The position numbers were made by a program, and so were the translations under genes. Source: Acidobacteriota bacterium (lineage in GTDB: Bacteria; Acidobacteriota; Blastocatellia; Pyrinomonadales; Pyrinomonadaceae). From it: 64,000 bases of DNA. The notes below the pieces were generated by a model that ran no database searches, was not told where the DNA came from, and saw only the letters and a list, made by a program, of their open reading frames with translations. The stretch covers positions 62,001-126,000 of the forward strand of contig JAOAPY010000023.1 of NCBI GenBank assembly GCA_025463135.1, in the 5' to 3' direction. Shown piece by piece: positions 40,578 to 63,999 of the stretch (position 1 is its first letter; each line of letters opens with the position of its first letter).

Positions 40578-40653
<76 letters not shown>

Positions 40654-44047: not shown

Positions 44048-47000
44048 TCATCCGAAGTCCAGAGCCAGTTGGATTTCGTCAACCTCTCGAACGGGTTGCG
44101 AGGGTCGCGCAAAATAAAACGCGGGGAGCGCCCAAGCCGCCTCGGTGGTTTCAATCTCTTTCGCTTGCTTGGCTGCGGACTGCTGCGGCGTCGGCTCGGC
44201 TTCGACAGCAACAAACCACTCGTTCAGGTCAATGATCTGGAGCGGTGCCAACTCGGTCGGTTCAATCTCCGCGATCGGTTCGTCGTCGGTCAAAGCGTCG
44301 CTTGCCAGCACTGGATAACGCGATAGTAAGTCAGTCAGCACAGCGATTCCGGGTTCCTCATCGGTCGGGACAAAGAAACGCTGTTTCCAATCGATCGTTT
44401 CGTTGATTAGACCAAGGCTGCGAATTTCGGCGAACCTGTATGGATCGACTCCGATTAGCTCTATGACCGGATCTCGGTGAATCACTCTCCGGCAAAGCTT
44501 CAAACCGGAAACAAGCTTCACTTCTTCGCTTTCGTCCAGGATGCCGGTAAAGATTTCTTCCGGCTCTCGAAGATCGCGCGTCGCGCCAAGCGCCGCGACA
44601 ATGGGGCCAACCTGCTCTGGTGGTATCCGTATGCCGACAATCCGCTGACCGTCGTCCGTAGTCACTCGGACAACACGCAAGCGGGCTTCTTCGTGCGTCT
44701 TGAATCTTTGCCATAAGGGAATGATCGCCCCGCCTATGATGTGAGTCTCTAAAGTGTCAATCGGCGGCACAGCTGCATGTTTCTTGATCCACCAATCACG
44801 GGCTTTCGAGGGAATCACGGCGCGATACTTCTCGCTTAGCTCGTCGTCGTGAATGTAACTACTTCGCGCCGCTTCCGGTTTCCAGATCGCGAACGTGCGA
44901 TAGCTGTTTCCGTTCTCGGCGTTTGTATGTAGTCCAGACTCGATTGCGAGAATGAAGTGACCGTTCTTCCGATGGCGAAAGAATGCACCGGTCTTTCGCT
45001 TTCGAACGCCCTCGGCTTCGTCGAAGCTGACAGCCTTCGAGGGCACGTCAATCTCTAAGGTGTAATGGGTGGTCTGGGCGTTGGTGATTTCGTCGGTATG
45101 CACTACGCGCGATGGCTTGGCGATCCGTATAGCCAGCGCTTTGATATCGGTCACTCCTTCGTCAAATGTCCCGTTCGCCTTCGCATACCTAACAGTCTGA
45201 TCGAACAAGTCAACGAAGTGGTCAAACAGCGCGTTCTGATGGTCAACGTCGAGCGCCAATACGCGGTTAAGGAATCGGGGCACGTTGTAGAGATCATCCT
45301 TACGCACTTCTTCGCAGCCGTCGCGGTTCCTCACAAGTAAACCGATATCGCGCAAGGTCTGACGTGGGTTCCCGATTCCTGGGACATTGCCGCTTTCGAC
45401 AATGCGTCGAAGCATTAGGCACAACGCGGCGCGCCCTTCTTCAGTCTCAAAGTTGTACTTCGCGAGATCGCCGCTGTCGGCACTTCGGCGGTCGCCTTTG
45501 GTCAACGCTCCCAGACTGCCCAGCCGTCGCGCGATGGTTGAACTAAAGCGCTTTTCGCCGCCTAGCTCGGTTGACAGTAAGACGTATTCGGGCGGCACTG
45601 CTTGATCTGAGCGATGCGTGCGGCCAAAAGTCTGCATTTGCTTGTCCGCACTCCAACCAAGCTCAAGCGTGACGTGTACTCGACGCTGCCTGTTCTCCGC
45701 GCGGTTGGAAGCATGAAGCGAGATCCCCATAGCGGCGGCATCGCTGATAATCGAAACGCGCTTCTTGCCCGCTTGAAACTGTGCCATTTCGTGAACGTTG
45801 GTTCGGTGCATGGCTACACCTTCCGGCGCTCGCTTTTTGTATTCGACTCGTCCGCGTGAGTCGCGAATGAGGCGGCGCGTTCTTCCGGTAAGCTCGGCAA
45901 CATTGCGCTCGCCAAGGTGATTGACAAGCTGGTCTAGCGGGTTTTCGGGAAGCTCTAAGGCTGACAAGCCGTCTATTATTTCCTGCTTCATCCGTAAGGC
46001 TTCTTTGCTCTGTACGATGTTGTTCTGCGCGTCTCTCACCGGAACCTGTATTGTCTTGCCGGTCCCCGGGTCTGTTACGTCTTGGTAGAGCGTCGTCGGA
46101 AACCCGCGATCGACCATGGCGGCGATCACTTCGCGGGGTGAGAAATCCAAATCCTCAAGTATCCCGCCATTCCCTGTCGCCTTTGCAACCTGCTCCTTTG
46201 TTCGAGCCTCGCCAGTTCCTACCAGTGAGATCACAACTGACTTGCCTTCGCTCAAGGCGGCTTCGGTTTCCGCTATCACACTCGGCACTTTGAAAGCGCA
46301 AATCACTTGGCGAAAGAAACGCTGATGATCTCCCCAAAACTTATTGAGCGCGACCGCTCGCGCACGTGGCCCGCCATTCGTGACTTCCAAGGCCGCGTCG
46401 ATGTTGCGTAATACGCTTTGCCACGCATCGGCGGCGCGGTTGTACATTTCGCGCTGCTGCGGTGTTAGTTGGTGGATGCGCTCTCGATATTCAACGGCCT
46501 TGCCGCTCTGAGGGCATACGCCGAATGAGATAGAACCGGATAGATACATGCCAAGGGCTTTCATATCGCGGCTGACCATTTCCATGGCGCCCACGCCGCC
46601 GGATTCAATCTCTTGCATGAACTCTTGAAAGCCGCCGGGAAAGCTGGTGCCAATACCCCAAAGTCCAAGCCTTGTCATATAGGCCATATTCCGAACGTCT
46701 GTTGCTCCCGTGGCTGATGAATAGACCACGCGGTAGTCTGCGTTTCGCTCCGGGTCTTGTAGGTCAATTACAGCCTGTCCGGTGAGGGTTGGTTCTCCGC
46801 GTCCCCCTGCAAGGGCATTCTTGGCCTTGTGTGCCTCGTCAAAGATGACTACGCCGTCCGAACCAAGCCAGCGTTGGATTTGGTCTAGGCGTTTCTCTCC
46901 CGTTTTAGCTGCGGCGATCAGGGATGAATAAGAACTAAAGATAACGCCGCGAGGTAAGGCGATCTCTCCGGCTGGCGGGTAATCATTGATTCGCGCTAGT

Positions 47001-48448
47001 GCGATGTTCTCTAGACCTAAGTCAGTGAGATCGCGGCGGGCTGATTCGAGTAGGTCATTGTTGACGGAAAGCCAGATCGCCCGTTGCCGGTCTTGATTCC
47101 AATTGTCGGCGATGATGCCGGCAAGTACGCGGCCTTTGCCGACTCCGGTGCCGTCGCCAACAAAGAACCCTGCGCGTGATGCGTCCGGCAGTCTTTGCTC
47201 GTGTCGCTGTCCAGCATAGATAACGCGTTCAAGCTGAATGTCTGATAGTCGTCCTTCGCTGGTAATCTCCGGCGCGAGGTGTGGCTTGTAAGTAATATCA
47301 GGCGGGACCACTGCGGCCATTGATGCCGATTCCACGATTACGGCCGGGTGAGGTTTGCCGCCTCTTAGCTTCGTTGGCACGTAAGGGACAAACAGATTTC
47401 CACTTGGTTCTTCGGGATCGTCGTCCGGCTCATTGGTTGGTGCCGTCTCAACTAAGTGCTTGAGCGCTTCCCAGGCATCCTCAAGCGTTGCAGCGCTGCC
47501 CCAGCTGATCTGCTTTAGCTGCTCCTGCCAGTTCGCTCCGGGCGTTTCTCCGGTCTTGTCTATGACAAGGACTTGAACATCGGGCGCGGCTCCGTATTTC
47601 GCATACTCTTTGCCGTCGAGGGTAAGGTTTGCGCGGATATTGCAGAGACAGGCGATCCGTTGCCACCATTCGCTAAAGCTCGGATGGTGAAAGCTCATTG
47701 CTTCGCTGACTATTGCGACCATTCGTCCACCGTCTTTCAATCGTCGTAAGGCCGTGGCTACGTGCCGCGCTCCGTGAATTGGATTTGTGCTCTTAACTCT
47801 GCCGCTGGTGGAGCTAAACGGCGGATTCATCAGGACGGCGGTTGGCTGAATCTCGGCGGGTAACAAGTCGTCGATGAACTCGGCATCAAGCGGAAGCGGA
47901 TCGAAGTTCAGCACACAACGAAGCAAAGAAAATCGCCGCAAGCTAGTCTCATTGCATATAACCTTCGCTCCGATCGCGTGAGGCCAAATCGCAAGGCTTC
48001 CGGTTCCGGCTGATGGTTCTAAAACGATATCGCTCGGCTGCGGATTCAATAGCCGCGCGGCGAGGTAAGCAAGCGTCGGCGGTGTCGAGAATTGCTGTAG
48101 CTCGGTTTGCTCTAACGTGCGATCCGTTTGTCGTGGTAGTCGCTGCATCAATGGGCGCAAAACGGAAGCAAGCGCTTCGGTCACGTCCATCTGCATTAGC
48201 TCTGCGGCGTGTTTCTCTAATAGATAGTTATTGACGGCGATTTCTACGGCGTCGTAAGCATCGCGCGGTGTGTATCTGCCTTGCGCTCTACTGCCGCCGA
48301 ATACTCGTTCTGCGGTTCTGGTTAGCTTCGGATTGTCAAACGGTTCTCCGTCCTCGATCCGTTCTTCTAACTCGGTGATCAGTTCGTGGATATTGCAGAC
48401 AAGCGCGTTTGTTCTGGCCGCGCAAACACCTGTACTCTGATCTGGCAT
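44048..48448 (-). CDS. Giant N6-adenine methyltransferase fused to Strawberry-notch-type helicase
   Basis: 1466 residues. An N-terminal helical part is followed by a methyltransferase (motif I EPSAGTGSLA near 144-153, motif IV NPPFSS near 208-213). Then comes an SF2 helicase: Walker A GDGTGVGKGRV near 430, DEAH box VIFDEAHKAKN near 537, and a C-terminal helicase lobe with FGRTHRSDQ. This order matches Strawberry-notch-like proteins on plasmids and phages. From knowledge of phage P1, its DarB protein has a similar methyltransferase-helicase make-up and protects incoming DNA from restriction. An anti-restriction role is inferred here. AGGAG precedes the ATG. Confidence 0.9.
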   Translation of the reverse strand: MPDQSTGVCAARTNALVCNIHELITELEERIEDGEPFDNPKLTRTAERVFGGSRAQGRYTPRDAYDAVEIAVNNYLLEKHAAELMQMDVTEALASVLRPLMQRLPRQTDRTLEQTELQQFSTPPTLAYLAARLLNPQPSDIVLEPSAGTGSLAIWPHAIGAKVICNETSLRRFSLLRCVLNFDPLPLDAEFIDDLLPAEIQPTAVLMNPPFSSTSGRVKSTNPIHGARHVATALRRLKDGGRMVAIVSEAMSFHHPSFSEWWQRIACLCNIRANLTLDGKEYAKYGAAPDVQVLVIDKTGETPGANWQEQLKQISWGSAATLEDAWEALKHLVETAPTNEPDDDPEEPSGNLFVPYVPTKLRGGKPHPAVIVESASMAAVVPPDITYKPHLAPEITSEGRLSDIQLERVIYAGQRHEQRLPDASRAGFFVGDGTGVGKGRVLAGIIADNWNQDRQRAIWLSVNNDLLESARRDLTDLGLENIALARINDYPPAGEIALPRGVIFSSYSSLIAAAKTGEKRLDQIQRWLGSDGVVIFDEAHKAKNALAGGRGEPTLTGQAVIDLQDPERNADYRVVYSSATGATDVRNMAYMTRLGLWGIGTSFPGGFQEFMQEIESGGVGAMEMVSRDMKALGMYLSGSISFGVCPQSGKAVEYRERIHQLTPQQREMYNRAADAWQSVLRNIDAALEVTNGGPRARAVALNKFWGDHQRFFRQVICAFKVPSVIAETEAALSEGKSVVISLVGTGEARTKEQVAKATGNGGILEDLDFSPREVIAAMVDRGFPTTLYQDVTDPGTGKTIQVPVRDAQNNIVQSKEALRMKQEIIDGLSALELPENPLDQLVNHLGERNVAELTGRTRRLIRDSRGRVEYKKRAPEGVAMHRTNVHEMAQFQAGKKRVSIISDAAAMGISLHASNRAENRQRRVHVTLELGWSADKQMQTFGRTHRSDQAVPPEYVLLSTELGGEKRFSSTIARRLGSLGALTKGDRRSADSGDLAKYNFETEEGRAALCLMLRRIVESGNVPGIGNPRQTLRDIGLLVRNRDGCEEVRKDDLYNVPRFLNRVLALDVDHQNALFDHFVDLFDQTVRYAKANGTFDEGVTDIKALAIRIAKPSRVVHTDEITNAQTTHYTLEIDVPSKAVSFDEAEGVRKRKTGAFFRHRKNGHFILAIESGLHTNAENGNSYRTFAIWKPEAARSSYIHDDELSEKYRAVIPSKARDWWIKKHAAVPPIDTLETHIIGGAIIPLWQRFKTHEEARLRVVRVTTDDGQRIVGIRIPPEQVGPIVAALGATRDLREPEEIFTGILDESEEVKLVSGLKLCRRVIHRDPVIELIGVDPYRFAEIRSLGLINETIDWKQRFFVPTDEEPGIAVLTDLLSRYPVLASDALTDDEPIAEIEPTELAPLQIIDLNEWFVAVEAEPTPQQSAAKQAKEIETTEAAWALPAFYFARPSQPVREVDEIQLALDFG

Positions 48449-48929: not shown

Positions 48930-49781
48930 TCAATGTTCGGTTTCGTTCTCGCTTGCTTGTAGGCGTCCGGCTCGCAGGATTTGATCTGCGGCGCGGAATA
49001 TCTTCTGAGCGCTTTTTTCGGGGATGGCGTCGCCGTTGTAGCCAACGGCGGGGCATAGCCAGTTCTGGATATAGCCTCGGCAATAGTCCGCGCCTTCGAG
49101 GTTCAACGCTTCGCAGCAAAGCAACGCGACTGCTTCGGCTTCGACTTCGCGCAAGTTCTTGGGCGTCCGTTCGGTGTCTGTGAAGTCGGCTTCGGCGGTG
49201 TGGCCTAGAATGACGTGGGCCGTCTCGTGGAATAGTGTCTTGTGCGGGAGTTGGGCCACGGGATTGATCGCGATCTGTCGCTTCTTCGCGTATCCCTGAC
49301 AGTTGCCGTCCGTAGCGGTGAAAGCGATCTGCTCAATGTCGAGGGCGGCTAATGCTCGCTCGGCTTCCCACTCCGGCAAGCGTGGCGGCGTGAATTCGTC
49401 GCCGACGGTCTGACTGATTGCGAACCATCGCGCCTTATGCATAAAGCTGGTAAATCTGCGCTCGCCGTTCTCGCCTTCGCTCTCGCCGCCGCTGCTGCCT
49501 TGCTCGTCGCGAACCTTGCGACTGATCGGCATGCAAAGGATTAAGGCTCGCTCGCCGCGTTTGACGGTTCGGCCTAGTGTTTGCCATCCGGGAAAGGTAT
49601 TGATCGGGCCGGGTTCCAGTCCGCGCAATTGGCATTGCACGATGGCAAGGATTTGATTTCCGATCGAGTAGTTGTGAAAAGCGGAGTAAGCTTCCATGAT
49701 CAGACCTGGCTTGTTGACTGCTTCAACTAATAAGGCTGACCACTTGGGAACGTCGGGCGCTGGTTTGGAATGATGTTGCAT
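48930..49781 (-). CDS. ArdC-like anti-restriction protein
   Basis: About 283 residues from the ATG at 49781 (AGGAG site). The N-terminal ssDNA-binding domain has YSIGNQILAIVQCQLRG and GWQTLGRTVKRGERALILCMP. The C-terminal metallopeptidase domain has LFHETAHVILGH (HExxH) and a downstream acidic motif REVEAEAVALL. From knowledge of ArdC of plasmid pSa, such proteins coat incoming single-stranded DNA and protect it from restriction. Its place ahead of the methyltransferase-helicase supports an establishment role early after transfer. Confidence 0.9.
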   Translation of the reverse strand: MQHHSKPAPDVPKWSALLVEAVNKPGLIMEAYSAFHNYSIGNQILAIVQCQLRGLEPGPINTFPGWQTLGRTVKRGERALILCMPISRKVRDEQGSSGGESEGENGERRFTSFMHKARWFAISQTVGDEFTPPRLPEWEAERALAALDIEQIAFTATDGNCQGYAKKRQIAINPVAQLPHKTLFHETAHVILGHTAEADFTDTERTPKNLREVEAEAVALLCCEALNLEGADYCRGYIQNWLCPAVGYNGDAIPEKSAQKIFRAADQILRAGRLQASENETEH

Positions 49782-50290
49782 TGGTTCGGTGCTCCTTTCG
49801 CTGCGCGTGGTTTTGGTCTGGGGCTTAAAACAGTGTTTCCCCCTCGTAGGGACGTTGGGACACGAGTGGGTGCCCGAACGCACACCCGTAGGGGCGGAAC
49901 GGAGTGGAGCACTCGGAGGCTTTGCGGAGAGTTGTGCGAGCGGGCTCTCGTGGCACAATCGGCCCGCAGAGGGGGAAACTAAATTAGATTTCTCGGCTGG
50001 AATGGAACGCAGTGGAATGCAAGCTGAGGCCTTATTGAATTAGGTTGCGCGTGAGCGCGCGAAGCCACCACCTGCCTGCTAGAGGGGTTTTGGCCTTTCA
50101 ATTAATATGATTAGTAGGTTCCATGAGCGCTACTGATATTTACTTAACGTCTCTGGGCCGCCTAGGCTTGTCTCAAGTTCCACAGCCACAGCCAAGGTCA
50201 GGTCAGGGCTGTGAGGAACAAATGCCCTTCGATGACTGTTTAGAGATCGCTCGGGGCACTTAAGATCGGATACCCTCGGTCGCTAATGGT
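49782..50290. other. Gene-free region between divergent ArdC and HNH genes
   Basis: About 510 bp. It must hold the promoters for the leftward anti-restriction operon and the rightward HNH gene. It contains the second copy of the GC hairpin repeat (50043-50100). No open frame here looks like a gene. Confidence 0.5.
50043..50100. repeat. Element-specific GC hairpin repeat, copy 2
   Basis: Shares GCGCGTGAGCGCGCGAA with copy 1 at 43424 and then a similar G-rich/T-rich tail (AGAGGGGTTTTGGCCTTT). The pair is in the same orientation about 6.6 kb apart, bracketing the anti-restriction genes. Confidence 0.65.
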
Positions 50291-51949: not shown

Positions 51950-52228
51950 ATGGCGGATTGTATCGTATCTTTTTTGGATTTGGACGGAGTTCGCCATTCG
52001 GTGGAAGTTGAAGCTGAAGGATTATACGAGGCTTCAGTTTTGGGTCTTTGTGCCTTTCGGAAGCATGAGCTTGAGCCAGGCGGATTAACTGAACTGCAAG
52101 TGGAAGTCCGCAGCTCGGTCACGCATACTCTGACTGTGACGAAGGTGCGGGATTGGTTGCAACGTGGCGTCAGAACGCCGAAGGAAGCAGTTCTGAAAGA
52201 AAGGCTTCGTTCCCTGCTCTCATCTTGA
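51950..52228 (+). CDS. Small conserved hypothetical protein
   Basis: 92 residues from the ATG at 51950 (MADCIVSFLDLDG). A beta-rich first half (VRHSVEVEAEGLYEA) and a basic helical second half (TVTKVRDWLQRGVRTPKEAVLKERL). I do not recognise a named family. Its 3' end overlaps the convergent ligase gene by 9 bp. Confidence 0.7.
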   Translation: MADCIVSFLDLDGVRHSVEVEAEGLYEASVLGLCAFRKHELEPGGLTELQVEVRSSVTHTLTVTKVRDWLQRGVRTPKEAVLKERLRSLLSS

Positions 52229-53248
52229 GCGCTTTGACCTTGGCTTGGGTTTGACAGTGCCACCGACAGGCTGCTCGCGGATTACCTCTTTTGGATTCTT
52301 GTCCTCGCGCAAACCTTGAAATGATGGGTGCCTTACTGATCCATCAGAAGTCCATTCAGTAAAGGCAACCTCCGCGATCATCTTCGGTTGGGTCCAATGC
52401 GTTTCACGCAAGCCTGGGTCTTTTGGCACGACTGTGAGCGCAGAGGTCGGACGTGAATAATTGTCGAGCTGCTTCTTCAAATCTCTACGCTGTTTGAAGG
52501 TGAAACCGGTCCCGACGCGCCCCGCGTAAATTAGCTTCCCCTTCTCGTAAACACCTAAGACGAGAGAACCGAATCCGGGCAGGCCTCTTGACGATGGCGT
52601 GTAGCCCGCGATAACAAACTCCTGTTGCTTCGCACACTTCACCTTGAGCCAGTTTCGACTCCGCGCCGATTCATAGTGAGAGTTAGCAAGCTTTGAAACA
52701 ATTCCTTCGATGCCGTACTCGCACGCGTGCTTGAAGAATTCGTCTCCGCTTCCGTTGATGTGTTCGCTATAACGAATGACGCCGTGCGAATTCGATCCCA
52801 CCAGATTCTGCAGCAGTTCTTTCCGATGCTTGAGAGGAGTTTGAGTGAGGCTGAAGCCGTCGAGATAAATGAGATCGAAGACCTCGTAAGCAAAGCCAGT
52901 CGTAGTGGCTTTGCCCATCGCGCGCTGTAGTTTCTGAAAGCTCGACCGGCCTTGCGCATCGACGATCACGATTTCGCCATCGAGCATCGCGCTTGTCGCC
53001 TTTAGGGACTTAACCGCTTCGACGACGTTCTGAAATTTCTGCGTCCACTCTTTTCCATTTCGGCTCCAGACGCTGACGCGACCACGATCGATGCGACAGA
53101 GCATTCGATAGCCATCGAATTTCAGCTCGTGCAGCCACTCATCACCAGAAGGGGGTTCTTTTACAAGAGTGGCAAGTTGGGGCGGGATAAAGCAAGGTAG
53201 TTTCGACTTACGCGCACCCGGCACCTTCTTAATATCTGGTCGGGCCAT
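52220..53248 (-). CDS. LigD-type ATP-dependent DNA ligase
   Basis: About 342 residues. Adenylation motif I is LKFDGYRML with the reactive Lys near 43. Motif III (YEVFDLIYLDGF), motif IV (EGIVSKL) and motif V (WLKVKC) follow, and an OB-fold C-terminus (GTGFTFKQRRDL). Family knowledge: this is the ligase part of bacterial non-homologous end joining, here without the LigD polymerase or nuclease parts. No Ku gene is seen in the window. Its ATG overlaps the stop of an XRE regulator by 1 bp (TGATG), so the two are co-translated. An element-borne repair or end-joining role is inferred. Confidence 0.93.
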   Translation of the reverse strand: MARPDIKKVPGARKSKLPCFIPPQLATLVKEPPSGDEWLHELKFDGYRMLCRIDRGRVSVWSRNGKEWTQKFQNVVEAVKSLKATSAMLDGEIVIVDAQGRSSFQKLQRAMGKATTTGFAYEVFDLIYLDGFSLTQTPLKHRKELLQNLVGSNSHGVIRYSEHINGSGDEFFKHACEYGIEGIVSKLANSHYESARSRNWLKVKCAKQQEFVIAGYTPSSRGLPGFGSLVLGVYEKGKLIYAGRVGTGFTFKQRRDLKKQLDNYSRPTSALTVVPKDPGLRETHWTQPKMIAEVAFTEWTSDGSVRHPSFQGLREDKNPKEVIREQPVGGTVKPKPRSKRSR

Positions 53249-53562
53249 CACCGTTTCTTCCGAGAACCAGACTTACGTTTCAGACCCTCATATCTCACAT
53301 TGCCAGGCAGCTTCGCTGGCAAATCTAATTCATCGTCAACAACATCTTCCATGTGGACGCCGGCAACGCGCGCATACTCCAGAAGCACCGATAGGTGCGG
53401 TTCTGTTGTTCCTCGCTCGAACTCCGAGATGCGGCGGTAGTCCATCACATCCTCGAATCCCAACCGTCTTAGCAACTCCGATTGTGACAGTCCCAGGGCA
53501 AGTCGGATCTCCAGAAGCTTCTCGGGCAAACGCTCCGGCCTCACACGAGCCCCTCTTGCCAT
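53248..53562 (-). CDS. XRE-family HTH regulator coupled to the ligase
   Basis: 104 residues from the ATG at 53562 (AGGAGG site). A helix-turn-helix lies at about 15-65: LLEIRLALGLSQSELLRRLG ... RRISEFERGTTEPHLSVLLEYA. The C-terminus is basic (RKSGSRKKR). It overlaps the ligase start by one base and so probably controls the ligase operon. Confidence 0.9.
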   Translation of the reverse strand: MARGARVRPERLPEKLLEIRLALGLSQSELLRRLGFEDVMDYRRISEFERGTTEPHLSVLLEYARVAGVHMEDVVDDELDLPAKLPGNVRYEGLKRKSGSRKKR

Positions 53563-54563: not shown

Positions 54564-55241
54564 ATGTGTGGCCGCTTCACGCTTCGAACTCGCGACAGAA
54601 TAAAGCTCAAGGGATTGAGTACGTCAGACCTTCCATTCGAGGCTCGGTACAACATTGCTCCGAGTCAGAGCATTCTGGCGATCGCAGATTTTGGACACGA
54701 GTTGGATCTGAAGTATCTGGTATGGGGCCTCGTTCCGTCCTGGAGCAAAGATGGAAAGGGATTCATCAATGCGCGCTCCGAAACAATAGCGGACAAACCA
54801 AGCTTCAGTGAGTCGTTTCAACGACGGAGATGTTTGATTCCGGCGGATGGCTTTTATGAATGGCAGAGATCCGGGAAGATCGCGCAGCCTCACTTCTTCC
54901 AGATGCACGATGAATCGCCGTTCGCTTTTGCCGGTATTTGGGACGAGTGGCAAACCGATGGAGACTTAATCGCTTCGTGCGCGATCATCACTACCACGGC
55001 GAATGAACTGTTGGCACCTATTCATGATCGGATGCCCGTCATACTACGTTCGCAGTCTTACGATACCTGGCTCGAAGGCAATTACGAGCCTGCGAAGTTG
55101 AGAAATCTTCTGGCGCCCTTTCCCGCCTCTGAGATGATTAGCCACGCAGTGGGTTATGATGTGAACCATCCAAAGATCGATGATGAACATCTTCTTAGGC
55201 CTGTCGAGCCGAATCTCGGAGTTACTCTCAGTCTGTTCTAG
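54564..55241 (+). CDS. SRAP-domain protein (HMCES/YedK family)
   Basis: 225 residues starting MCGRFTLRT: the Cys at position 2, exposed after Met removal, forms a thiazolidine crosslink with abasic sites in single-stranded DNA (family knowledge). Other family motifs are INARSETI, LIPADGFYEW and HDRMPVIL, all present, so the protein should be functional. On a conjugative element it could shield abasic sites in the transferred single strand; that is inference. Confidence 0.95.
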   Translation: MCGRFTLRTRDRIKLKGLSTSDLPFEARYNIAPSQSILAIADFGHELDLKYLVWGLVPSWSKDGKGFINARSETIADKPSFSESFQRRRCLIPADGFYEWQRSGKIAQPHFFQMHDESPFAFAGIWDEWQTDGDLIASCAIITTTANELLAPIHDRMPVILRSQSYDTWLEGNYEPAKLRNLLAPFPASEMISHAVGYDVNHPKIDDEHLLRPVEPNLGVTLSLF

Positions 55242-55719: not shown

Positions 55720-56220
55720 TTACGCTAAGTATAAAATGAAGTCGGGAGTTGTTCGGCCTCTGCGGACATTGACCTCATCATCGAGAGACTTACCGATGAG
55801 AGCTCTTGCGACTGGCGCCTGGAGCATCACCGTTTGCAGTGTTAGATTGCTGTTGTCGATCGGAATGCTCATCCCGCCGCATGCAGGCAGAATGAAATAC
55901 AGATTCTCTATCGCACTACCTTCCGGACCAATGCCCACAATACAGCCGATAGAGACGCGTTCTGGGGAATCAGGCAACCTGACGTTCTTCAGTCTGTATG
56001 TTCCCTCGGCCTTCTCCTCAATACTCTTGGCGAGACCGTCTGCGACCCAAGCTGCCTCAACTCCCATCGTGTCGTATCTACTTTGCATTCGCCCAGGTGC
56101 CTCTATTGAAGTCAGCTTAGCCTCGTCAAAACTTGCGCGCAGAGTCTTAATTTCTTCCTCGAGCGTTCGAATAATTCCTTCCAGTAACGCTGTTTTATCA
56201 ATCGCAATAGTTGCGCCCAT
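55720..56220 (-). CDS. GreA/GreB-like transcription elongation factor
   Basis: 166 residues. The N-terminal half is a coiled-coil (ALLEGIIRTLEEEIKTLRAS) with a YDTMGVEAAWVADGLAKS second helix. The C-terminal half is the FKBP-like domain (YFILPACGG ... PVARALIGKSLDDEVNV). Family knowledge: Gre factors reach into RNA polymerase and rescue stalled complexes through acidic tip residues; the tip here (SIEAPGRMQSR) is poorer in acids than usual. AGGAGG, which overlaps the end of the radical SAM gene, is its ribosome site, so it is the last gene of the SorC operon. Confidence 0.85.
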   Translation of the reverse strand: MGATIAIDKTALLEGIIRTLEEEIKTLRASFDEAKLTSIEAPGRMQSRYDTMGVEAAWVADGLAKSIEEKAEGTYRLKNVRLPDSPERVSIGCIVGIGPEGSAIENLYFILPACGGMSIPIDNSNLTLQTVMLQAPVARALIGKSLDDEVNVRRGRTTPDFILYLA

Positions 56221-56231
56221 TTCTTGTTCCC

Positions 56232-57299
56232 TTACCTCCTGCTAATTTGAGTCAATCCACGTCGGCCCGACGCTGTAATACTTGTTGGAGCCATAAAAGG
56301 GCGGCCTGGAAACGAATAATCGCCGGATGTCTTATGACACCACGATATAGATGTTCCCGGTAAGAAGCAGTTGTAGTTACAGTATGGCACGACGATATAT
56401 CTCAACGCTGACCCACGAAGAATACTGTCTGCCGCGCCGCCGACACATTCTGTGAGGCGGTCGTGCAAACAACTACCTCCCTGATGATCCATACTCAATA
56501 AGTCACTGAGCGCGAATCCGATGTCTCGCCTCAAGTAACAGAAGTGAACATTAAGTTCGGGTTCGACGCGAACGTAATCACCGAACTCCTCCAAGCATGT
56601 TTCGCGGTGAGCACAGCTCGAACACGGCTCACTGGATCGATCTACCTGGTCACTCAATTTCACTTCGACAATGCCGTTACCTGGTAGGTGGTAGCGCAAA
56701 CGCCCCCTTCCTATCTCTCCTGCTACATGCTCGATATATCTTGTGCGAGGTAAAACGTATTCGCGCACAACCTGTCGCCAATCAGTGTATGTGTCTGAGT
56801 AGACTTCGGCGATCTCAGGTGTCCACATAAGATCATAAAGCTTAAGGCGCATGCCATATCTGCATATAAAATCTAGCTGTGTTGGAAGGTCGTTCGTCGA
56901 TCCTCTTAGTAGGACCCGGTTGAAGGAGATGGGCAGCCCAACCCGGGCGGCGGCCTCGATGCCTCGGTAGAAGGTGTCGTAGTCGCCGTGCCCCGAGATC
57001 TCGCGGTATCGATCAGGAGCCGTGGTATGCCAGCTAATTCGAAGTAGCGAGAGTCCCGCAGTCTTCAACTCCGCTGCATTTTTCTCGAGTTGACTCCCGT
57101 TGGTCGTCATTGTTACGCGAACACCGGACTCTACAAGTCCACGGACGAGATCTGACGGCGTCAGTTTGCCGTCTCGCCACAAGAGAGGCTCCAAAGCACC
57201 AAGTTCAACCTCCCGCCGGCCACCTGCGGCAATCCACAAGCGCGCCACCGCAATAGCATCATCGTACCGTAGGGGATTTCGGTTGCTTGAGACTTTCAT
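56232..57299 (-). CDS. Radical SAM protein with C-terminal cysteine motif (circularly permuted)
   Basis: 355 residues. It starts in the middle of a normal MoaA-like fold: VELGALEPLLW (E37-P38 at the GGEP position, glycines lost), RVTMTTNGSQL, LLRISWHTT, ISFNRVLLRGSTND. An auxiliary Cys set follows at C226, C229, C235 and C254. The expected first strand and cluster motif, ALRYIVVPYCNYNCF ... SWCHK, come last, with Cys at 307, 311 and 321 (spacing C-x3-C-x9-C). Nothing after them repeats the core, so the parts are complete but permuted. It lies 9 bp after the kinase gene. The substrate is unknown. Confidence 0.8.
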   Translation of the reverse strand: MKVSSNRNPLRYDDAIAVARLWIAAGGRREVELGALEPLLWRDGKLTPSDLVRGLVESGVRVTMTTNGSQLEKNAAELKTAGLSLLRISWHTTAPDRYREISGHGDYDTFYRGIEAAARVGLPISFNRVLLRGSTNDLPTQLDFICRYGMRLKLYDLMWTPEIAEVYSDTYTDWRQVVREYVLPRTRYIEHVAGEIGRGRLRYHLPGNGIVEVKLSDQVDRSSEPCSSCAHRETCLEEFGDYVRVEPELNVHFCYLRRDIGFALSDLLSMDHQGGSCLHDRLTECVGGAADSILRGSALRYIVVPYCNYNCFLPGTSISWCHKTSGDYSFPGRPFMAPTSITASGRRGLTQISRR

Positions 57300-57308
57300 C
57301 TTGGGGTC

Positions 57309-57902
57309 TTACTGCAGTACCTCACTGACGTCTATCAGAGAAATGATTCGTTCCACCGTCGTGTCAGCATCTAGGGTTGTCGTGTCAATCACGTTGAGAT
57401 CAAAACTGCAGAACTCGCGCTGCACTGAAGCCAAGTAGAGTCTGTTGCACTCCAAAGCGCTGTCATGGCGTGAGATTTCTGCACCTCGTTCCGTCAAACG
57501 TTTCAACCTCTCAGACTCATCGGCAATGAGAAGGAAAGTCTTGTCTGGTCCCAATAGCGTTGTCGGAATTGTGTAACCGCGGAAGCGTTCATTCATTGCA
57601 GCGTGGTAAGCTAAAGTCGAGAAAACGTAACGGTCACACACAACTGGCTGCAGAACGCGGAGTCTGCGTATTTCTGTAGAGGCGAACGCCACTGCACTCA
57701 AATAAAAGTAGAACCTCGCGTATTCATCTGCATTCGTATCGATGGCCGCTCGTATGGAGTCGTAAGGTGCTGGAGGGGTCTTATAGTAGATACCGCCGAG
57801 AGAGACGGCGAGTTTCCGCGCGACGGTGCTCTTGCCGACGCCGTCAACTCCCTCTATGCAAATAAACGGATGTGGTCTTGTCGAAGGCTCGCTAGTAATC
57901 AT
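57309..57902 (-). CDS. Thymidylate-kinase-like P-loop kinase
   Basis: 197 residues. P-loop GVDGVGKST near the N-terminus after a short extension, DRY-type motif VCDRYVFSTLAYHAA, and a LID-like stretch RLTERGAEISRHD. The overall plan is that of dTMP kinases, but the substrate-binding residues differ (YYKTPPAPYDSIR instead of the usual REPGGT), so the substrate may be another nucleoside phosphate or small molecule. It overlaps the regulator stop by 4 bp (ATGA). Probably a metabolic partner of the radical SAM enzyme. Confidence 0.88.
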   Translation of the reverse strand: MITSEPSTRPHPFICIEGVDGVGKSTVARKLAVSLGGIYYKTPPAPYDSIRAAIDTNADEYARFYFYLSAVAFASTEIRRLRVLQPVVCDRYVFSTLAYHAAMNERFRGYTIPTTLLGPDKTFLLIADESERLKRLTERGAEISRHDSALECNRLYLASVQREFCSFDLNVIDTTTLDADTTVERIISLIDVSEVLQ

Positions 57903-58921
57903 GTGCGCCCTCCTTTTTGATCTAGAACGGTCATCTTTGTGCTAGAGGACATGCCTCCTGTGAGCCGAATTGCCGTCTTCTCGTCAATTACTACCGCGTT
58001 TACAATTCGCGACCGCAGCGCTATTTCGAGTGCCGGAATCTTGTGCGGGCCGCCCGCAATACACACAACAGTCTTGTCCGGCCTGGATGCCATGTCCTTC
58101 AATTGTGCAATCGATACTGTCCTGAACAATGACGCTATTTCTTCTCCAGCGTCGTCGAAATAGTTATAGTTAATGCCACCGGCTGCCTTTTCCTCGATCA
58201 ATTTGGTCTTTGCAATGCCGGCGCGATCGAGCAGCGGAATTAGTTCAGCGACGGGTTCTGACCCGCCTAGGCCAACAAACGCCGCCGAAGAGTTCCTTGC
58301 TTGCGCCAAGACTGCGTCAACCTCCGGGATGGATCGTTCCACGAGTTCTTTGAAGACCCGTCTTGCAGTCTTATCCTTCGGTGGTGGCAACATTCCAATG
58401 ACTGACGCCCGCGCTTTTGGAGAAGACTTGTAAAAGAGGAGAGCGGCAAGGAACGCTGCGTCGACAAACTCAATTAAAGGTCCGCGTCCGACAAGCGCCA
58501 TTGGAGCTATATGAATGCTTCGCGGGTACGTAGGGATAGCGTCGACCATAGCTTTCAATGACCCGCCACCTCCGATCCCAATGCTCGATCCTGGTGTCGC
58601 TAACTCTTCGAAGAGCTCCGCAGCGACCTGGCCCAGCATCTCTTTCTGCCGTTCGTAGTCGGCTGAGCTTGGTGCGACACGAGCGAGCCTGAGCGAAAAC
58701 TTGGAGGCCAGCGTATTCTCCAATTGTGCGAAGTCTCTTCTTTCAACAATGCTGATCCGCACGATTCCTCGCGCTAATGCCTCATCGATTAATCGCTTCA
58801 CGTGAGTCACCGAGACTCCGAGATGGTCTGCAATTTGGCTTTTGGTACAGTGATCCTCATAGTGCATGCGCGCGCACTCAACCAAGAGTTCAATTTTGTC
58901 TTTTTTCAGACGTCTGGCCAT
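57899..58921 (-). CDS. SorC-family transcriptional regulator
   Basis: 340 residues. N-terminal HTH (SQIADHLGVSVTHVKRLIDEA, read here as QIADHLGVSVTHVKRLIDE) and a large C-terminal sugar-phosphate-type effector domain (IGIGGGGSLKAMVDAIP ... FVGLGGSEPVAELIPLL ... CIAGGPHKIPALEIAL). Known members bind phosphorylated sugars such as deoxyribose-5-phosphate. It is the first gene of the four-gene operon and is read almost without a leader from its own promoter. Inverted repeats just upstream are candidate operators, so it probably controls its own operon. Confidence 0.92.
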   Translation of the reverse strand: MARRLKKDKIELLVECARMHYEDHCTKSQIADHLGVSVTHVKRLIDEALARGIVRISIVERRDFAQLENTLASKFSLRLARVAPSSADYERQKEMLGQVAAELFEELATPGSSIGIGGGGSLKAMVDAIPTYPRSIHIAPMALVGRGPLIEFVDAAFLAALLFYKSSPKARASVIGMLPPPKDKTARRVFKELVERSIPEVDAVLAQARNSSAAFVGLGGSEPVAELIPLLDRAGIAKTKLIEEKAAGGINYNYFDDAGEEIASLFRTVSIAQLKDMASRPDKTVVCIAGGPHKIPALEIALRSRIVNAVVIDEKTAIRLTGGMSSSTKMTVLDQKGGRT

Positions 58922-59165: not shown

Positions 59166-61550
59166 TTAGCGTGCCCTGACTTCGCGTTCTTGTGAGTGAT
59201 TTGCTCCTCGAGCTAGTTCCAAATGTTTTTCTCTTATCGCCGCATCGTTCTGTTGTTCGGCGTAGATTTCCAGACTGATCTTCTCCTTGTCAGTAAACTG
59301 CGGCTCGCGATTTTTTGCTTCCGAAGCGAACTCGCGGGCGGATGCGTGATAGTTCGAAGCCTTATCAAAGTCATTGACAAGCCGACCATGGTGTTCTAAC
59401 GCAGCAGATTTGACACTGTGCCGATGATCGCGCTGTTCACGTGATTCAAGAATTGTTCGTGCAAGATAATCTGTGAGGTTCCGCGCTTCGACTTCACGCA
59501 GTGTTCCGGTTTGGTGATTGCCAAGGTGCAATGATGCAACCTTCTTACTTTCTAGAAAATGTTCGAGTCGCTCCTTTGCTTGCTCGACAGCTAAGCCCGA
59601 CATTATCTCTCGCGCAACCGCCCTCCCTTCCCAATTGATGTCGGAATCACTCCTGGCGGCGCGCTTTTCCCATTCGTGCACTTCTCGCAATAGGTTTGAA
59701 TCGCGGAGCGTTTCGGCGCTCGCTTCGATTGCATTGATTTGATGGCGTTCGTATCGTGGGTCAGGCAGGGTCAGGCCATTCTGCGATCGAGAACGTTGCT
59801 CAGGTGCATGAGCATTCTCCAAAACATCGAGCACTTCACGCGCCAGATCACGGTCTTCAATGAGCGGGTGGCGGCGTTGTTCAATTTGTCGAACGATTTC
59901 ATCCCGGACGTTGCTGAGGTGTTCAACGTCGGCAGATGCTTGCTGCCTTGCGGCCTGTGAATAGTTCATCCGTGCCAGCGAGCGCCAGTTAAGATGTGCC
60001 GCGCGTTCGGGTATCAGCTTTGTGTCTTCCCGCCGACGAGCGATCTGCTTGTCTAACGCAGCAAGTGACCAGCGATCTCCTCCAACTTCATAAGTCGTCA
60101 AGTGGACGGACGCTTCAAAATTCTCCAGCCTGGCGCTGCGAGCCATGAGGTCGGCACGCACAACGTTGAGTTGAGCGCCAAGTATTGCGGCCTCTTCATC
60201 AGTGCGCGCAGGCGCATTGTGTTCTCGCGCTAGGGTCAACCTAAGTTTTTCCAGTTCCAAGACTCTTTCTGGAAGATTCAACCTGACCGCTTGGTTCTGC
60301 AGTTCCGACAGAGTATCCCGAGACAAAATCGGCTCTAGTCGTCTATCAGCAGGCATCTCATAACGCTTAATGATACTTTCTTCGATCTTAGCCAAGTTGC
60401 CGCGTAGAGAGCCCACATCTTTTCCAAGGGCAGCAATCTTATTCTCTCTCGCTTCCACAAGTTGTTTTAGCGTGTCGGCGTGTCCAGCGATATCAGCTTC
60501 AATAAATTCGTTGCGGACCGCATGATTCCCTTGAGCAAATCGTGCCGCGCGTGCGGCGGCTCGGCGTCTAACATCAAGTTCGGATATATTTCGTTCCTCA
60601 GAAGTCGATTGATCGACGACTTCAAACCTGTAGGTCTGACCATGTTGGACGGCTCGGTCGTGCCACGCCTCAGCAAAAGTTAGACGGAATTCGAACTCCA
60701 AGTGTTTTCCAATCGCAACGCGCAAATCATTGTTGCGATCCTCAGTCGACTGTTCGTTTGGATTCCAGCTGGTTGAAATCTGTGCGTGCTCTATTGAAGC
60801 AATCGGACGTCGAGTTTTATTTGGTCGCATCTGCTGTCGATTCGAATCTATTTCGTCGCTTCTTTCTAGAGACTGAATGTTCCTGTTGAGGTCTGACTCC
60901 TCCCTGGCCTTCTGGTACTTGCGGGCAAGCCTGTCCCAAATTTCTGCCGGCGTTAGTTGAGGTTGCTTCTCTTTGGATTCAATATATAGAGCCTGTTGTT
61001 TCTCGATCGCCGCGAGGAACCTGTCTCCGACGCGTCCATTAACGATGACCTCTTTTCCGTTTTCGATTGCTCGGTGAGGAAGCAAAGGTTTCGGTATCCG
61101 AGCTATCCTTCTCACCCAACCAGTTTCTCGTTCAACGATCTCCTTACTTATAACAATGTGAGCATGCGGGTTCTGGGAGTTGCGATGTATGCCAGCAACC
61201 CAAGTGAGTTCTTCGGCGTTAAGTTCCGCAGCCATCCCTTTCATTGCCTCGCGAACTGCCTCACGAAATCGCTCCTGCTTGTCATGTTCATTCGCACCTA
61301 ACTTGTCGAAATCTTCCGTTTCGATCATTACAGAGAAGTGAATGAGATCATTCTTTTCAGGCCGCCCTTGGACAGGATCGAGAATGCGGTCGGCACGATG
61401 GTATGAGAGATTGTCCTGGTCATCGCTGAATAGACGTCGAGAGCCGGGACCCTCACGTTCCAGGTCTTTGTCCCGCTCCGCGATATAGCGGGTGATACGG
61501 CTGCCGCCGGAGCCGCCGCCGGTAGAGAGGATATGAAAGAAGACTCCCAT
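59166..61550 (-). CDS. Conjugative relaxase
   Basis: 794 residues. The N-terminal 250 residues hold a Mob-type relaxase: metal-binding His motif IHRNSQNPHAHIVIS (H-x7-H-x-H, near 120-130) and upstream aromatic or charged residues (HFSVMIETEDFDKL). The rest is a long, highly charged helical region with repeated coiled-coil character, as in large relaxases. It should nick oriT and lead the DNA strand into the recipient. It lies 5 bp from the downstream stop of a small membrane protein, same strand. The transfer origin is not identified. Confidence 0.85.
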   Translation of the reverse strand: MGVFFHILSTGGGSGGSRITRYIAERDKDLEREGPGSRRLFSDDQDNLSYHRADRILDPVQGRPEKNDLIHFSVMIETEDFDKLGANEHDKQERFREAVREAMKGMAAELNAEELTWVAGIHRNSQNPHAHIVISKEIVERETGWVRRIARIPKPLLPHRAIENGKEVIVNGRVGDRFLAAIEKQQALYIESKEKQPQLTPAEIWDRLARKYQKAREESDLNRNIQSLERSDEIDSNRQQMRPNKTRRPIASIEHAQISTSWNPNEQSTEDRNNDLRVAIGKHLEFEFRLTFAEAWHDRAVQHGQTYRFEVVDQSTSEERNISELDVRRRAAARAARFAQGNHAVRNEFIEADIAGHADTLKQLVEARENKIAALGKDVGSLRGNLAKIEESIIKRYEMPADRRLEPILSRDTLSELQNQAVRLNLPERVLELEKLRLTLAREHNAPARTDEEAAILGAQLNVVRADLMARSARLENFEASVHLTTYEVGGDRWSLAALDKQIARRREDTKLIPERAAHLNWRSLARMNYSQAARQQASADVEHLSNVRDEIVRQIEQRRHPLIEDRDLAREVLDVLENAHAPEQRSRSQNGLTLPDPRYERHQINAIEASAETLRDSNLLREVHEWEKRAARSDSDINWEGRAVAREIMSGLAVEQAKERLEHFLESKKVASLHLGNHQTGTLREVEARNLTDYLARTILESREQRDHRHSVKSAALEHHGRLVNDFDKASNYHASAREFASEAKNREPQFTDKEKISLEIYAEQQNDAAIREKHLELARGANHSQEREVRAR

Positions 61551-61555
61551 AGGAG

Positions 61556-62098
61556 TTATTTCGACTTTCGAGAAAGCGGCTCTTGTTTGATCATCCCGAG
61601 AAGGGCGAGTTGACTATACGTGGGAGTGCCAGATACGGCGGCTACTTCCTTCAGGTCGAATGCGGGACCTTTCCATTTCTCTCGATCATCCGGCGTCAGA
61701 ATCAAGAAATAGGTGTTGGCTTCTTCCGGGTTTGGCCCAACTGGGATGGCCCACATCGTAGAGCGGGTCGGACTTATGAAGGTGTAAAGATAGTAGTAGT
61801 TTCGAATGACGACCGAACGCCCTTCCAGACCGTAAGCAGGTGGTTTCGGATGTTTCCACACTGTTGCTTCGACCTCGTTGAAGGTGGGAGGAAACGTAGC
61901 GTTGACTTTCTGATACTGCCTGAGACCTTTGATGATGTTGAGAATGGGATCGATTTGAGGAATCTCAGCCTTTGCTTTCCATTCCGCTGCATAGGACGAA
62001 TAACCCCAAGCTCCTAAGTACGTGACGATCGCGATTAAAAGTAATCCATAAGCGAAACTGAATCGACGCTTTCCAGTCTTTCCTTCTACTCCGCGCAT
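61556..62098 (-). CDS. Single-pass membrane protein of the transfer region
   Basis: 180 residues. Basic N-terminus, one membrane helix (FAYGLLLIAIVTYLGAWGYSS), and an outer domain rich in Tyr and Pro (IRNYYYLYTFISPTRSTMW, PNPEEANTYFLILTPDDREKW). I do not recognise the family. It sits between the coupling protein and the relaxase, 5 bp from each, so it belongs to the same transfer operon. Confidence 0.75.
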   Translation of the reverse strand: MRGVEGKTGKRRFSFAYGLLLIAIVTYLGAWGYSSYAAEWKAKAEIPQIDPILNIIKGLRQYQKVNATFPPTFNEVEATVWKHPKPPAYGLEGRSVVIRNYYYLYTFISPTRSTMWAIPVGPNPEEANTYFLILTPDDREKWKGPAFDLKEVAAVSGTPTYSQLALLGMIKQEPLSRKSK

Positions 62099-62103
62099 CT
62101 GTT

Positions 62104-63999
62104 CTACGCCCCTAGCAACTCAACTTTTAGCGTCGGCCCACTCAGCCGTTTTTGAGTAATTGATTTCGGTCGCTCGCTACTTGATCCGACTACCGATTGA
62201 GGACCGGCGCCTGCTGTAGAGTCTGCAGTTACACTTTTCAACTTGGCTTCGCCATTCGATTCCTCAACTTCTCTTATCTTCTCCATTGCTGCCACGGCCA
62301 CAGCCAAAGGAGGCGGCGTCGCTAATGCTCGCTCAGGGGGAACCGCAATGTCACCTGTGTCACCGCGAGCTAGAAATCGAAACAGAATAGGATCGGCGGT
62401 ATCGATGATTGCAATACCTTGGCGATACTTAACCATTCTTCGCAGTTCAGGTGCTTGCCGGAGATCGCGTCGGCTTTCAGAGACGCGCTCAGCGTCATTA
62501 TTGGTGCCGGTCGCATCAACCTCGGTACGTGAAAGCACCGTTGTGGGGCCAAGCATGGCTGATGCGTAAGCGCCGGTCTCTGGATCAATTCCAGGGAGAA
62601 ATATCTGATTTCTCATTCCGGCTAACACTGCTTTACCGCCATTCTCCTGAAACTTCCTCTTGATTTGTGGAACGTCTTGGAATCCCAAGAGGTAAGGGGT
62701 GTTCCGAAATCTCCCAATCTTCAGCTTGTCTTGCAGCTTTGGCGGTGCAATATTCCCGGCTTCATCAAGTGCCATCAATACCGGAGTTGCGCCCCTCTTA
62801 GTGGATGCTTGCATCTCAATCGCGGCCAATCCGAAAAGCAACTCCAGCAGAATGTGATATTCGCTGGCCTGAGTCTCAGACATGACGACGTAAATGGCGG
62901 TACCAGGCTTGCGAAGGTCGGCAAGATCAATCTCCCGCACTCCGCGCCTCAGTTCTTCCGATGACGCGCTTTTCAATACGCGCATTGCGTTCGGCGAGCG
63001 CAAAGGCGCAATCTTGTTATTCAGGCCGGTAATTACACCGCCTTGGGTCTTCTCGGCATCCACCTTTGTAAAGTTACCCCATTCAAGTTTCGCTTCATGA
63101 TCTCTGGAGTTGTCCATGTCCTCGCCAAGCTTTTTCAAATCATTGAGCGATAGATACTCCTTGATCATCGGAAGTGTTGGATTGACTGCAATCGTCGGAA
63201 GGTGAAGACACAGCGCTTTCATCAATGCAGTCTCACCAGAAATCCAATAATGGGTACTGTCGTTGACCTTCATGTTTTCAGGTTCGTACCCCACAACAAT
63301 GGAGGCTATTGAGTGCGCTAGCTCGCCGTTGCCTAAGCAGCGCGGCAGCGGATTCCACAAGTCGGATAAATCAGGATTCTCCAAATCAATGCGGTAAACA
63401 TGATCGTAGTATCGGGCCGTGTGGGCGTATAGCTCCCCCTTTATATCCATGACTAGAACTGAACCCGACTGAGCCCAGTCTCGGAGGATATTCATGTAAA
63501 ACGTGGCTGACTTTCCTGAATTCGAAGGTCCAAAAAGACCGGTGTGAACGAGAAGATTTTCCAGCCTCAAGATTAGATCGTATTGACGAGGACTCAGCGC
63601 AGAACTGAGTCTGCCAATCCTTACTGCGCCACGAGGCAGGGGTTCGCTCGATGGATGAGCCAAACCCTTTGCCTTGAGATCTGCGATGCTCGCCCACCTC
63701 GCCGATCCATGAGTGAGTCGTTGGTTGATGCTGTAATACGGATAAGCCAGTGAGACTGATTCAAACACTCCAACCAAAGCGACCATGAATGCGCCAATCA
63801 GTACGAAGATCATCCACTTGAAACTGAGATTGATAAGTTGGCCAGATTTGAAGAATAGATAACCGGCAACAATACTACTTAGGAGCAAGGTGCCGCCTCG
63901 CGATAGGTCCTGAAGGAACCGCGTTGCGGCGTGGAATGAGTCAAGGTCTGGCTCGTCGGCTGGACGAGGGATGAAATAGTCAGCATCGATCCTTTCAAC
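62104..63999 (-). CDS. VirD4/TraG type IV coupling protein, 5' end outside window
   Basis: At least 631 residues; the frame is open to the right window edge, with acidic residues ADYFIPRPADEPDLDSF before the first in-window TTG candidate at 63888, so the start is beyond 64000. Two membrane helices precede an ATPase domain with Walker A GPSNSGKSATF, Walker B VLMALDEAGN and a later RNQIFLPGIDPETGAYAS stretch typical of the TraG family. It links relaxase-bound DNA to the secretion channel. The channel genes are not in view. Confidence 0.93.
   Translation of the reverse strand, partial: VERIDADYFIPRPADEPDLDSFHAATRFLQDLSRGGTLLLSSIVAGYLFFKSGQLINLSFKWMIFVLIGAFMVALVGVFESVSLAYPYYSINQRLTHGSARWASIADLKAKGLAHPSSEPLPRGAVRIGRLSSALSPRQYDLILRLENLLVHTGLFGPSNSGKSATFYMNILRDWAQSGSVLVMDIKGELYAHTARYYDHVYRIDLENPDLSDLWNPLPRCLGNGELAHSIASIVVGYEPENMKVNDSTHYWISGETALMKALCLHLPTIAVNPTLPMIKEYLSLNDLKKLGEDMDNSRDHEAKLEWGNFTKVDAEKTQGGVITGLNNKIAPLRSPNAMRVLKSASSEELRRGVREIDLADLRKPGTAIYVVMSETQASEYHILLELLFGLAAIEMQASTKRGATPVLMALDEAGNIAPPKLQDKLKIGRFRNTPYLLGFQDVPQIKRKFQENGGKAVLAGMRNQIFLPGIDPETGAYASAMLGPTTVLSRTEVDATGTNNDAERVSESRRDLRQAPELRRMVKYRQGIAIIDTADPILFRFLARGDTGDIAVPPERALATPPPLAVAVAAMEKIREVEESNGEAKLKSVTADSTAGAGPQSVVGSSSERPKSITQKRLSGPTLKVELLGA

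Follow-up and report, generated by a model that had tools for sequence, protein, structure and literature searches.

The 355-aa protein encoded at 56232-57299 on the minus strand of the window, by which we mean the whole 64,000-nucleotide stretch of Acidobacteriota DNA analyzed in this study, is very probably a MoaA-branch radical SAM enzyme with a circularly permuted chain, predicted to be functional and encoded in a conserved three-gene cassette. Few enzyme superfamilies are as large as that of the radical SAM enzymes, in which the cluster loop normally comes first in the domain. The present ORF comprises 355 codons with no internal stop. The barrel core without its first strand occupies residues 10-214 (56658-57272, minus strand) and contains helix 1, strand 2 with the ALEP motif (residues 35-38, 57186-57197, minus strand) and strands 3-6, as assigned from Pfam and MoaA model alignments and from DSSP of the predicted structure. 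It is followed by a twitch-like auxiliary region, C226-x2-C229-x5-C235-x18-C254 (56538-56624, minus strand), which aligns with the CxxC...C region of MoaA. The first segment is relocated to residues 298-331 (56307-56408, minus strand) and consists of a strand and the cluster loop LR-x6-CNYNC-x2-P-x5-WC. Residues 298-321, C-terminal to the four auxiliary cysteines, read ALRYIVVPYCNYNCFLPGTSISWC. C307, C311 and C321 are spaced as C-x3-C-x9-C, and the GGEP-type motif reads GALEP with E37. No cluster motif was found at the N-terminus of the 355-aa protein, and the DNA encoding the motif (56337-56381, minus strand) is the sole match within the window, with no match in 100 shuffles. The earlier note had placed the cluster segment behind the auxiliary cysteines and had reported both the unusual spacing and GALEP; these readings agree with the ORF.

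The Pfam Radical_SAM profile matches residues 11-137 at 50.7 bits, above the gathering cut-off of 29.5. This match covers profile positions 29-157 of 166, confirming that the remaining core segments stand in the usual order, and the unmatched part is precisely the profile start. MoaA models align only from profile position about 38-58 on. Radical SAM proteins typically carry a CX3CX2C motif on the loop behind strand 1, where the domain begins; here it is replaced by a C-terminal CX3CX9C. Some established members of the superfamily also deviate from CX3CX2C. Nevertheless, CX3CX9C is an uncommon spacing for a SAM cluster and counts against the reading as a permuted enzyme.

Gene starts are readily misassigned in unannotated sequence, and the unusual order could be attributed to an assembly error, a frameshift or a wrong start that hides a true gene with an N-terminal cluster segment. 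However, the upstream kinase gene ends at 57309, 9 bases before the start of the permuted enzyme, and the stop-to-stop frame adds only three codons, so that no N-terminal segment can have been missed. In some other genomes the kinase gene even overlaps the start. The same permuted order in independent genomes and on a complete plasmid refutes this explanation, to which we attach a negligible probability.

Eight further full-length proteins from Acidobacteriota, Gammaproteobacteria and Patescibacteria, with pairwise identities of 31-90%, share the permuted order. In all nine full-length proteins, the window protein included, the cluster segment is C-terminal and never N-terminal. Homologues with an additional N-terminal cluster segment, which the earlier note named as evidence against permutation, were sought and none was present among the full-length proteins. 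The shared order speaks against a start error, a frameshift or a decaying relict. L299, R300, C307, N308, N310, C311, P314, W320, C321 and P331 are invariant, as are ALEP and the four auxiliary cysteines. The protein from a plasmid of Acinetobacter sp. WCHA55 keeps the order at 36% identity over residues 6-336; its NCBI record carries only the name "radical SAM protein".

A DNA pattern for CNxNCxxPx5WC was run over 84,980 species genomes and identified seven loci of the family, comprising two fragments and five loci from Solibacteraceae (L058), Pseudomonas akapageensis (L032), Marinospirillum (L065), Paceibacterota (L039) and Allochromatium (L073). The Solibacteraceae protein is 59-61% identical to that of the window. 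Genome searches yielded two more loci, one in another member of Pseudomonadaceae (L093) and one in another genome from the class of L039 (L094). The clade is rare, with two of 398 Pseudomonadaceae genomes, one of 395 genomes in the phylum of L058, two of 384 in the class of L039 and one of 162 in the class of the window. Peptide-pattern scans of genomes and viral contigs, starting from one protein alone or from small alignments, found no relative. Several candidates were discarded. Matches of the DNA pattern in viral contigs were out of frame and due to chance only; phage matches, and all plasmid matches but one, were radical SAM proteins of normal order or covered only part of the query; and a match in Pseudomonas lundensis is a normally ordered protein from a different radical SAM family. 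Two Patescibacteria pieces do not represent a split gene, as one (L055) is truncated by the contig end and the other (L040) is a fragment only.

The correspondence between the tail and the missing first segment was examined by placing the tail ahead of the core and comparing the rotated sequence with MoaA, with 200 column-shuffled tails as control. The HHalign score rose from 160.6 (E 3.8e-22) in the native order to 198.6 (E 1e-27) after rotation, while the shuffled tails reached 167.9 +/- 3.0 with a maximum of 182.9. The score peaks for cuts between residues about 235-290 and drops when the cut enters the cluster segment. In the rotated alignment, L299-R300...C307-N-x-N-C311 pairs with the LRxxxxxxCNxxC start of MoaA at identical spacing. 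Against the curated archaeal MoaA model, rotated proteins match from profile position 11-12, compared to 39-44 in the native order. All five proteins gained from rotation, the window protein by only 0.4 bits and the other four by 3-6 bits; with a shuffled tail the window protein fell to 84.1 bits. The Pfam match was extended to the profile start in four of the five proteins. The exception is the window protein, in which a long stretch without conservation at the C-terminus (residues 332-355) comes in between.

Circular permutations usually arise when a gene is duplicated and sequence is then lost from both ends. On this basis the tail could instead be the dead start of a second copy left by a tandem duplication, in an enzyme that lost its own first segment and is now dead or auxiliary only, and the last 20-odd residues after FPGRP are indeed unconserved. 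Substitution rates estimated by the Nei-Gojobori method point the other way. Between the window and Solibacteraceae proteins dN is 0.089 in the tail and 0.348 in the core, making the tail the most conserved part. In the Pseudomonas pair, dN is alike in tail and core (0.052 and 0.049), and dN/dS is 0.18 in the tail, which has only 52 codons and a lower dS, and 0.05 in the core. These values denote a tail under selection and hence not a relict. The cluster residues are moreover invariant in nine proteins of three phyla, and E37, the TNG strand and the four auxiliary cysteines are retained. A dead tail is therefore very improbable. Of the tandem duplication suggested in the earlier note, the part that survives is the origin: the permutation probably arose through such an event, but the tail is no remnant now.

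The structure predicted by AlphaFold2 from six sequences has a pTM of 0.79 and a mean pLDDT of 75.5. DSSP of the model places a strand at residues 298-302, just ahead of C307, and residues 322-355 have pLDDT below 50. MoaA gave the best match in the PDB, with Z 20.2 over 262 residues; the alignment starts at its residue 38, directly past the cluster cysteines C24/C28/C31. Nine proteins of the same order, the rotation with its shuffle control, the constraint on the tail and the predicted strand together support the circular permutation that the earlier note had proposed. In the proposed arrangement, the chain would start at barrel helix 1 and run through strands 2-6 and the twitch-like auxiliary region, with strand 1 and the cluster loop coming last. 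At the barrel mouth, C307, C311 and C321 would serve as ligands of the C-terminal [4Fe-4S] cluster by which the enzyme would cleave SAM.

MoaA (GTP 3',8-cyclase) is the closest known enzyme in sequence, profile and fold, and it has the same combination of a barrel and a C-terminal auxiliary cluster. The LR-x6-CNxxC start, the TTNG strand, the arginine of LR and one arginine of the auxiliary region can be aligned between the two. R300 corresponds to Arg17 of MoaA (numbering inferred from the spacing to C24), one of three MoaA residues replaced in PDB 2fb2. The permuted enzyme differs from MoaA in its order, in CX3CX9C instead of CX3CX2C, in ALEP instead of GGEP, and in four auxiliary cysteines instead of three. 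A basic residue preceding TGGEP in MoaA aligns with the invariant E32, which together with ALEP indicates a shift in substrate use. The scores remain far below the cut-offs of the MoaA equivalog models (88.9 against 325, 72 against 231, and 62.3 against 284), and a separate weak match is present elsewhere in the genome. The auxiliary cluster of MoaA is held by three cysteines and has an open site that binds GTP (PMC9012708, PMC5352715). In BtrN, a twitch-domain radical SAM dehydrogenase, four cysteines hold one auxiliary cluster (PMC9012708). The permuted enzyme shares this number with its invariant cysteines 226, 229, 235 and 254, although BtrN has the normal order and belongs to a different pathway. 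The four cysteines suggest an auxiliary cluster that is fully ligated, unlike the open site of MoaA; if so, the chemistry is probably not GTP cyclization. Judged from the four auxiliary cysteines and ALEP in place of GGEP, the permuted enzyme is not MoaA.

The gene lies in a compact cassette with a nucleotide kinase and a GreA/Gfh1-like factor, and these partners were found in nine of the nine genomes with readable surroundings. The earlier note mentions neither this cassette nor the conjugative element that carries it here. All three genes are on the minus strand in the window, in the order kinase, permuted enzyme, Gre-like protein. They adjoin each other in L058, L092, L093, L096 and the Acinetobacter plasmid (L016). 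L094 and L097 show the order Gre-like protein, kinase, enzyme, and in L095 the kinase and Gre-like pair is found 6 kb downstream of the enzyme. Pairwise identities of the enzyme correlate with those of the kinase (r 0.92) and of the Gre-like protein (r 0.85), each with a Mantel p of 0.0002. The kinase (57309-57902, minus strand; 197 aa) matches Pfam Thymidylate_kin (PF02223) at 66 bits against a gathering cut-off of 27, and scores 65 with the dTMP kinase equivalog, below the cut-off of 83; PADLOC models PDC-M51B and VakA match it at 4.1e-33 and 3.1e-20. A SorC/DeoR-type sugar-binding regulator (57899-58921, minus strand; PF04198 at 9.5e-27, DeoR model 105 bits) overlaps the kinase start by four bases, and is absent from the other cassettes read.

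The Gre-like protein (55720-56220, minus strand; 166 aa) matches Pfam GreA_GreB (PF01272) weakly, at 21.7 bits against 26.9. Its predicted structure (pLDDT 83.9) matches Gfh1 with Z 12.5 over 145 residues and GreA with Z 11.2, and has in common with GreA, GreB and Gfh1 a predicted coiled-coil hairpin and a C-terminal domain. The hairpin tip reads MQSRYDT, with G43, S47, D50 and T51 invariant and D50 as the aspartate at the tip. A wider family with a KYDTLGLEA tip occurs without the cassette in Gammaproteobacteria (L101:9389-9874, L102:1029-1514), and Gre-like matches in two other genomes (G1417, G1457) were rejected as cassettes since they have no kinase or radical SAM neighbours.

Enzymes of the twitch/SPASM type frequently modify peptides. 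The permuted enzyme may accordingly be thought to modify a neighbouring protein, for example the Gre-like tip, rather than a nucleotide. This would conform to the invariance of the tip and to the four auxiliary cysteines, which are closer to the fully ligated cluster of BtrN than to the open site of MoaA. Against it, the nearest family is that of MoaA, a nucleotide enzyme, a nucleotide kinase is always nearby, and related Gre-like proteins with the YDT tip exist without any radical SAM gene. We consider protein modification unlikely. Kinship with MoaA, the alignment of the LR arginine and the presence of the kinase all point instead to a nucleotide triphosphate as the substrate of the permuted enzyme.

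The viperin systems, pVip with VakA, also combine a radical SAM enzyme and a kinase resembling thymidylate kinase, and PADLOC separates viperins with kinases from those without. To our knowledge, viperins are unpermuted and without the auxiliary cluster region. The core of the permuted enzyme matches PADLOC pVip weakly, at 18.7 bits over a partial stretch, and the NCBIfam viperin model scores 14.7 bits against a cut-off of 180. The permuted enzyme is not viperin, and the cassette differs from the viperin system by the additional Gre-like gene. The kinase is likewise matched by component B of the PADLOC candidate PDC-M51, while PDC-M51A matches neither the permuted enzyme nor any gene of the locus, so the two-component PDC-M51 is not present here. 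Elsewhere in this genome PDC-M51A matches two proteins (L074, L075) that appear by eye to be B12-binding radical SAM proteins. Pairs of radical SAM and thymidylate-kinase-like proteins may be a recurring theme.

The window cassette is carried as cargo by an integrative conjugative element located at tRNA-Glu, spanning 40578-63888 with its right end beyond the window. It sits between a tyrosine integrase (40714-41928, minus strand; PF00589) beside the tRNA-Glu gene (40578-40653, plus strand), the likely integration site, and conjugation genes at 59166-63888, namely a relaxase (59166-61550, minus strand; PF18555/PF03432) and a T4SS-DNA_transf/TraG coupling protein (62104-63888, minus strand; PF02534, PF12696). 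A strawberry-notch-type helicase (44048-48448) and an ArdC-like protein (48930-49958) also belong to the element. Two cargo-like genes beside the cassette resemble by eye an ATP-dependent DNA ligase of the LigD type (52220-53251) and an SOS-response-associated peptidase of the SRAP/HMCES type (54564-55241). Other copies of the cassette are located on a plasmid (L016) or, by eye, beside transposases (L065, L092), and some lie outside recognizable defence islands.

The neighbouring genes vary. Upstream of the cassette on the Acinetobacter plasmid pNDM1_010055 (L016:1-5209) are a small second radical SAM protein with a single 4Fe-4S cluster (Fer4_12), an AAA_2 ATPase matching PADLOC PDC-M37B (1.6e-30), one further, unassigned protein and a PIN-domain protein; together with the cassette they may form one larger operon. 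In Pseudomonas (L092:206-8042, L093:1-7558) the cassette is preceded by a run of GTPase genes, of dynamin/MMR_HSR1 type where tested and otherwise assigned by eye, and by a 239-aa protein that by eye appears peptidase-like. In three Patescibacteria genomes a gene for a similar protein, CYTH-like by eye, runs convergently towards the 3' end of the intact or fragmentary permuted gene (L094:8943-9521, L039:3080-3661, L040:1893-2627); Pfam gave no match for the copy in L094. Among the large proteins neighbouring the cassette in Allochromatium, PADLOC recognized no defence gene.

The conserved order and the same two partner genes suggest a mobile system in which a modified nucleotide acts on RNA polymerase. 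Prokaryotic viperins produce chain-terminating nucleotides that block phage transcription (PMC12926258, a review). This activity, and the division of viperins in PADLOC by the presence of a kinase, make a viperin-like system with a Gre-like partner the most likely of the functional readings, though a tentative one, in which a modified nucleotide would be the joint product of the kinase and the permuted enzyme, with RNA polymerase as the site of action of the Gre-like factor. The kinase would supply or mature the nucleotide, and the permuted enzyme would use radical chemistry to modify its triphosphate form. The resulting compound would block the polymerase of an invader, and the Gre-like factor would clear or shield the host polymerase through the secondary channel. 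A complete anti-phage system of this kind, mobile, with the permuted barrel and CX3CX9C, a new nucleotide that stops transcription and a Gre-like factor protecting the host polymerase, is a more speculative proposition.

Known members of the SorC/DeoR type sense sugar phosphates. The regulator at the window locus, as well as the metallophosphoesterase and (by eye) CYTH-like proteins that adjoin some cassettes, would suit a small nucleotide-derived metabolite for signalling, as an antibiotic or as a cofactor, rather than defence. Mobile cargo better accounts for the patchy distribution and for the location of cassettes on a conjugative element, on a plasmid or next to transposases. We rank this possibility second, behind the viperin-like working and ahead of protein modification.

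Across the 5.39 million open-access papers searched, we found neither a permuted radical SAM barrel nor CX3CX9C in a radical SAM enzyme; the earlier note, too, knew of no named example of such a barrel. Some papers pairing radical SAM with circular permutation concern other proteins. The cassette brings a factor for the RNA polymerase channel together with radical chemistry and the phosphorylation of nucleotides. This combination is unreported in the literature searched, and it is directly testable in E. coli. Family models and genome annotation depend on the cluster loop at the domain start, and the permuted clade can explain why such genes carry only the label "radical SAM protein". A conserved permuted clade means that the radical SAM fold tolerates the cluster-bearing strand at the C-terminus.
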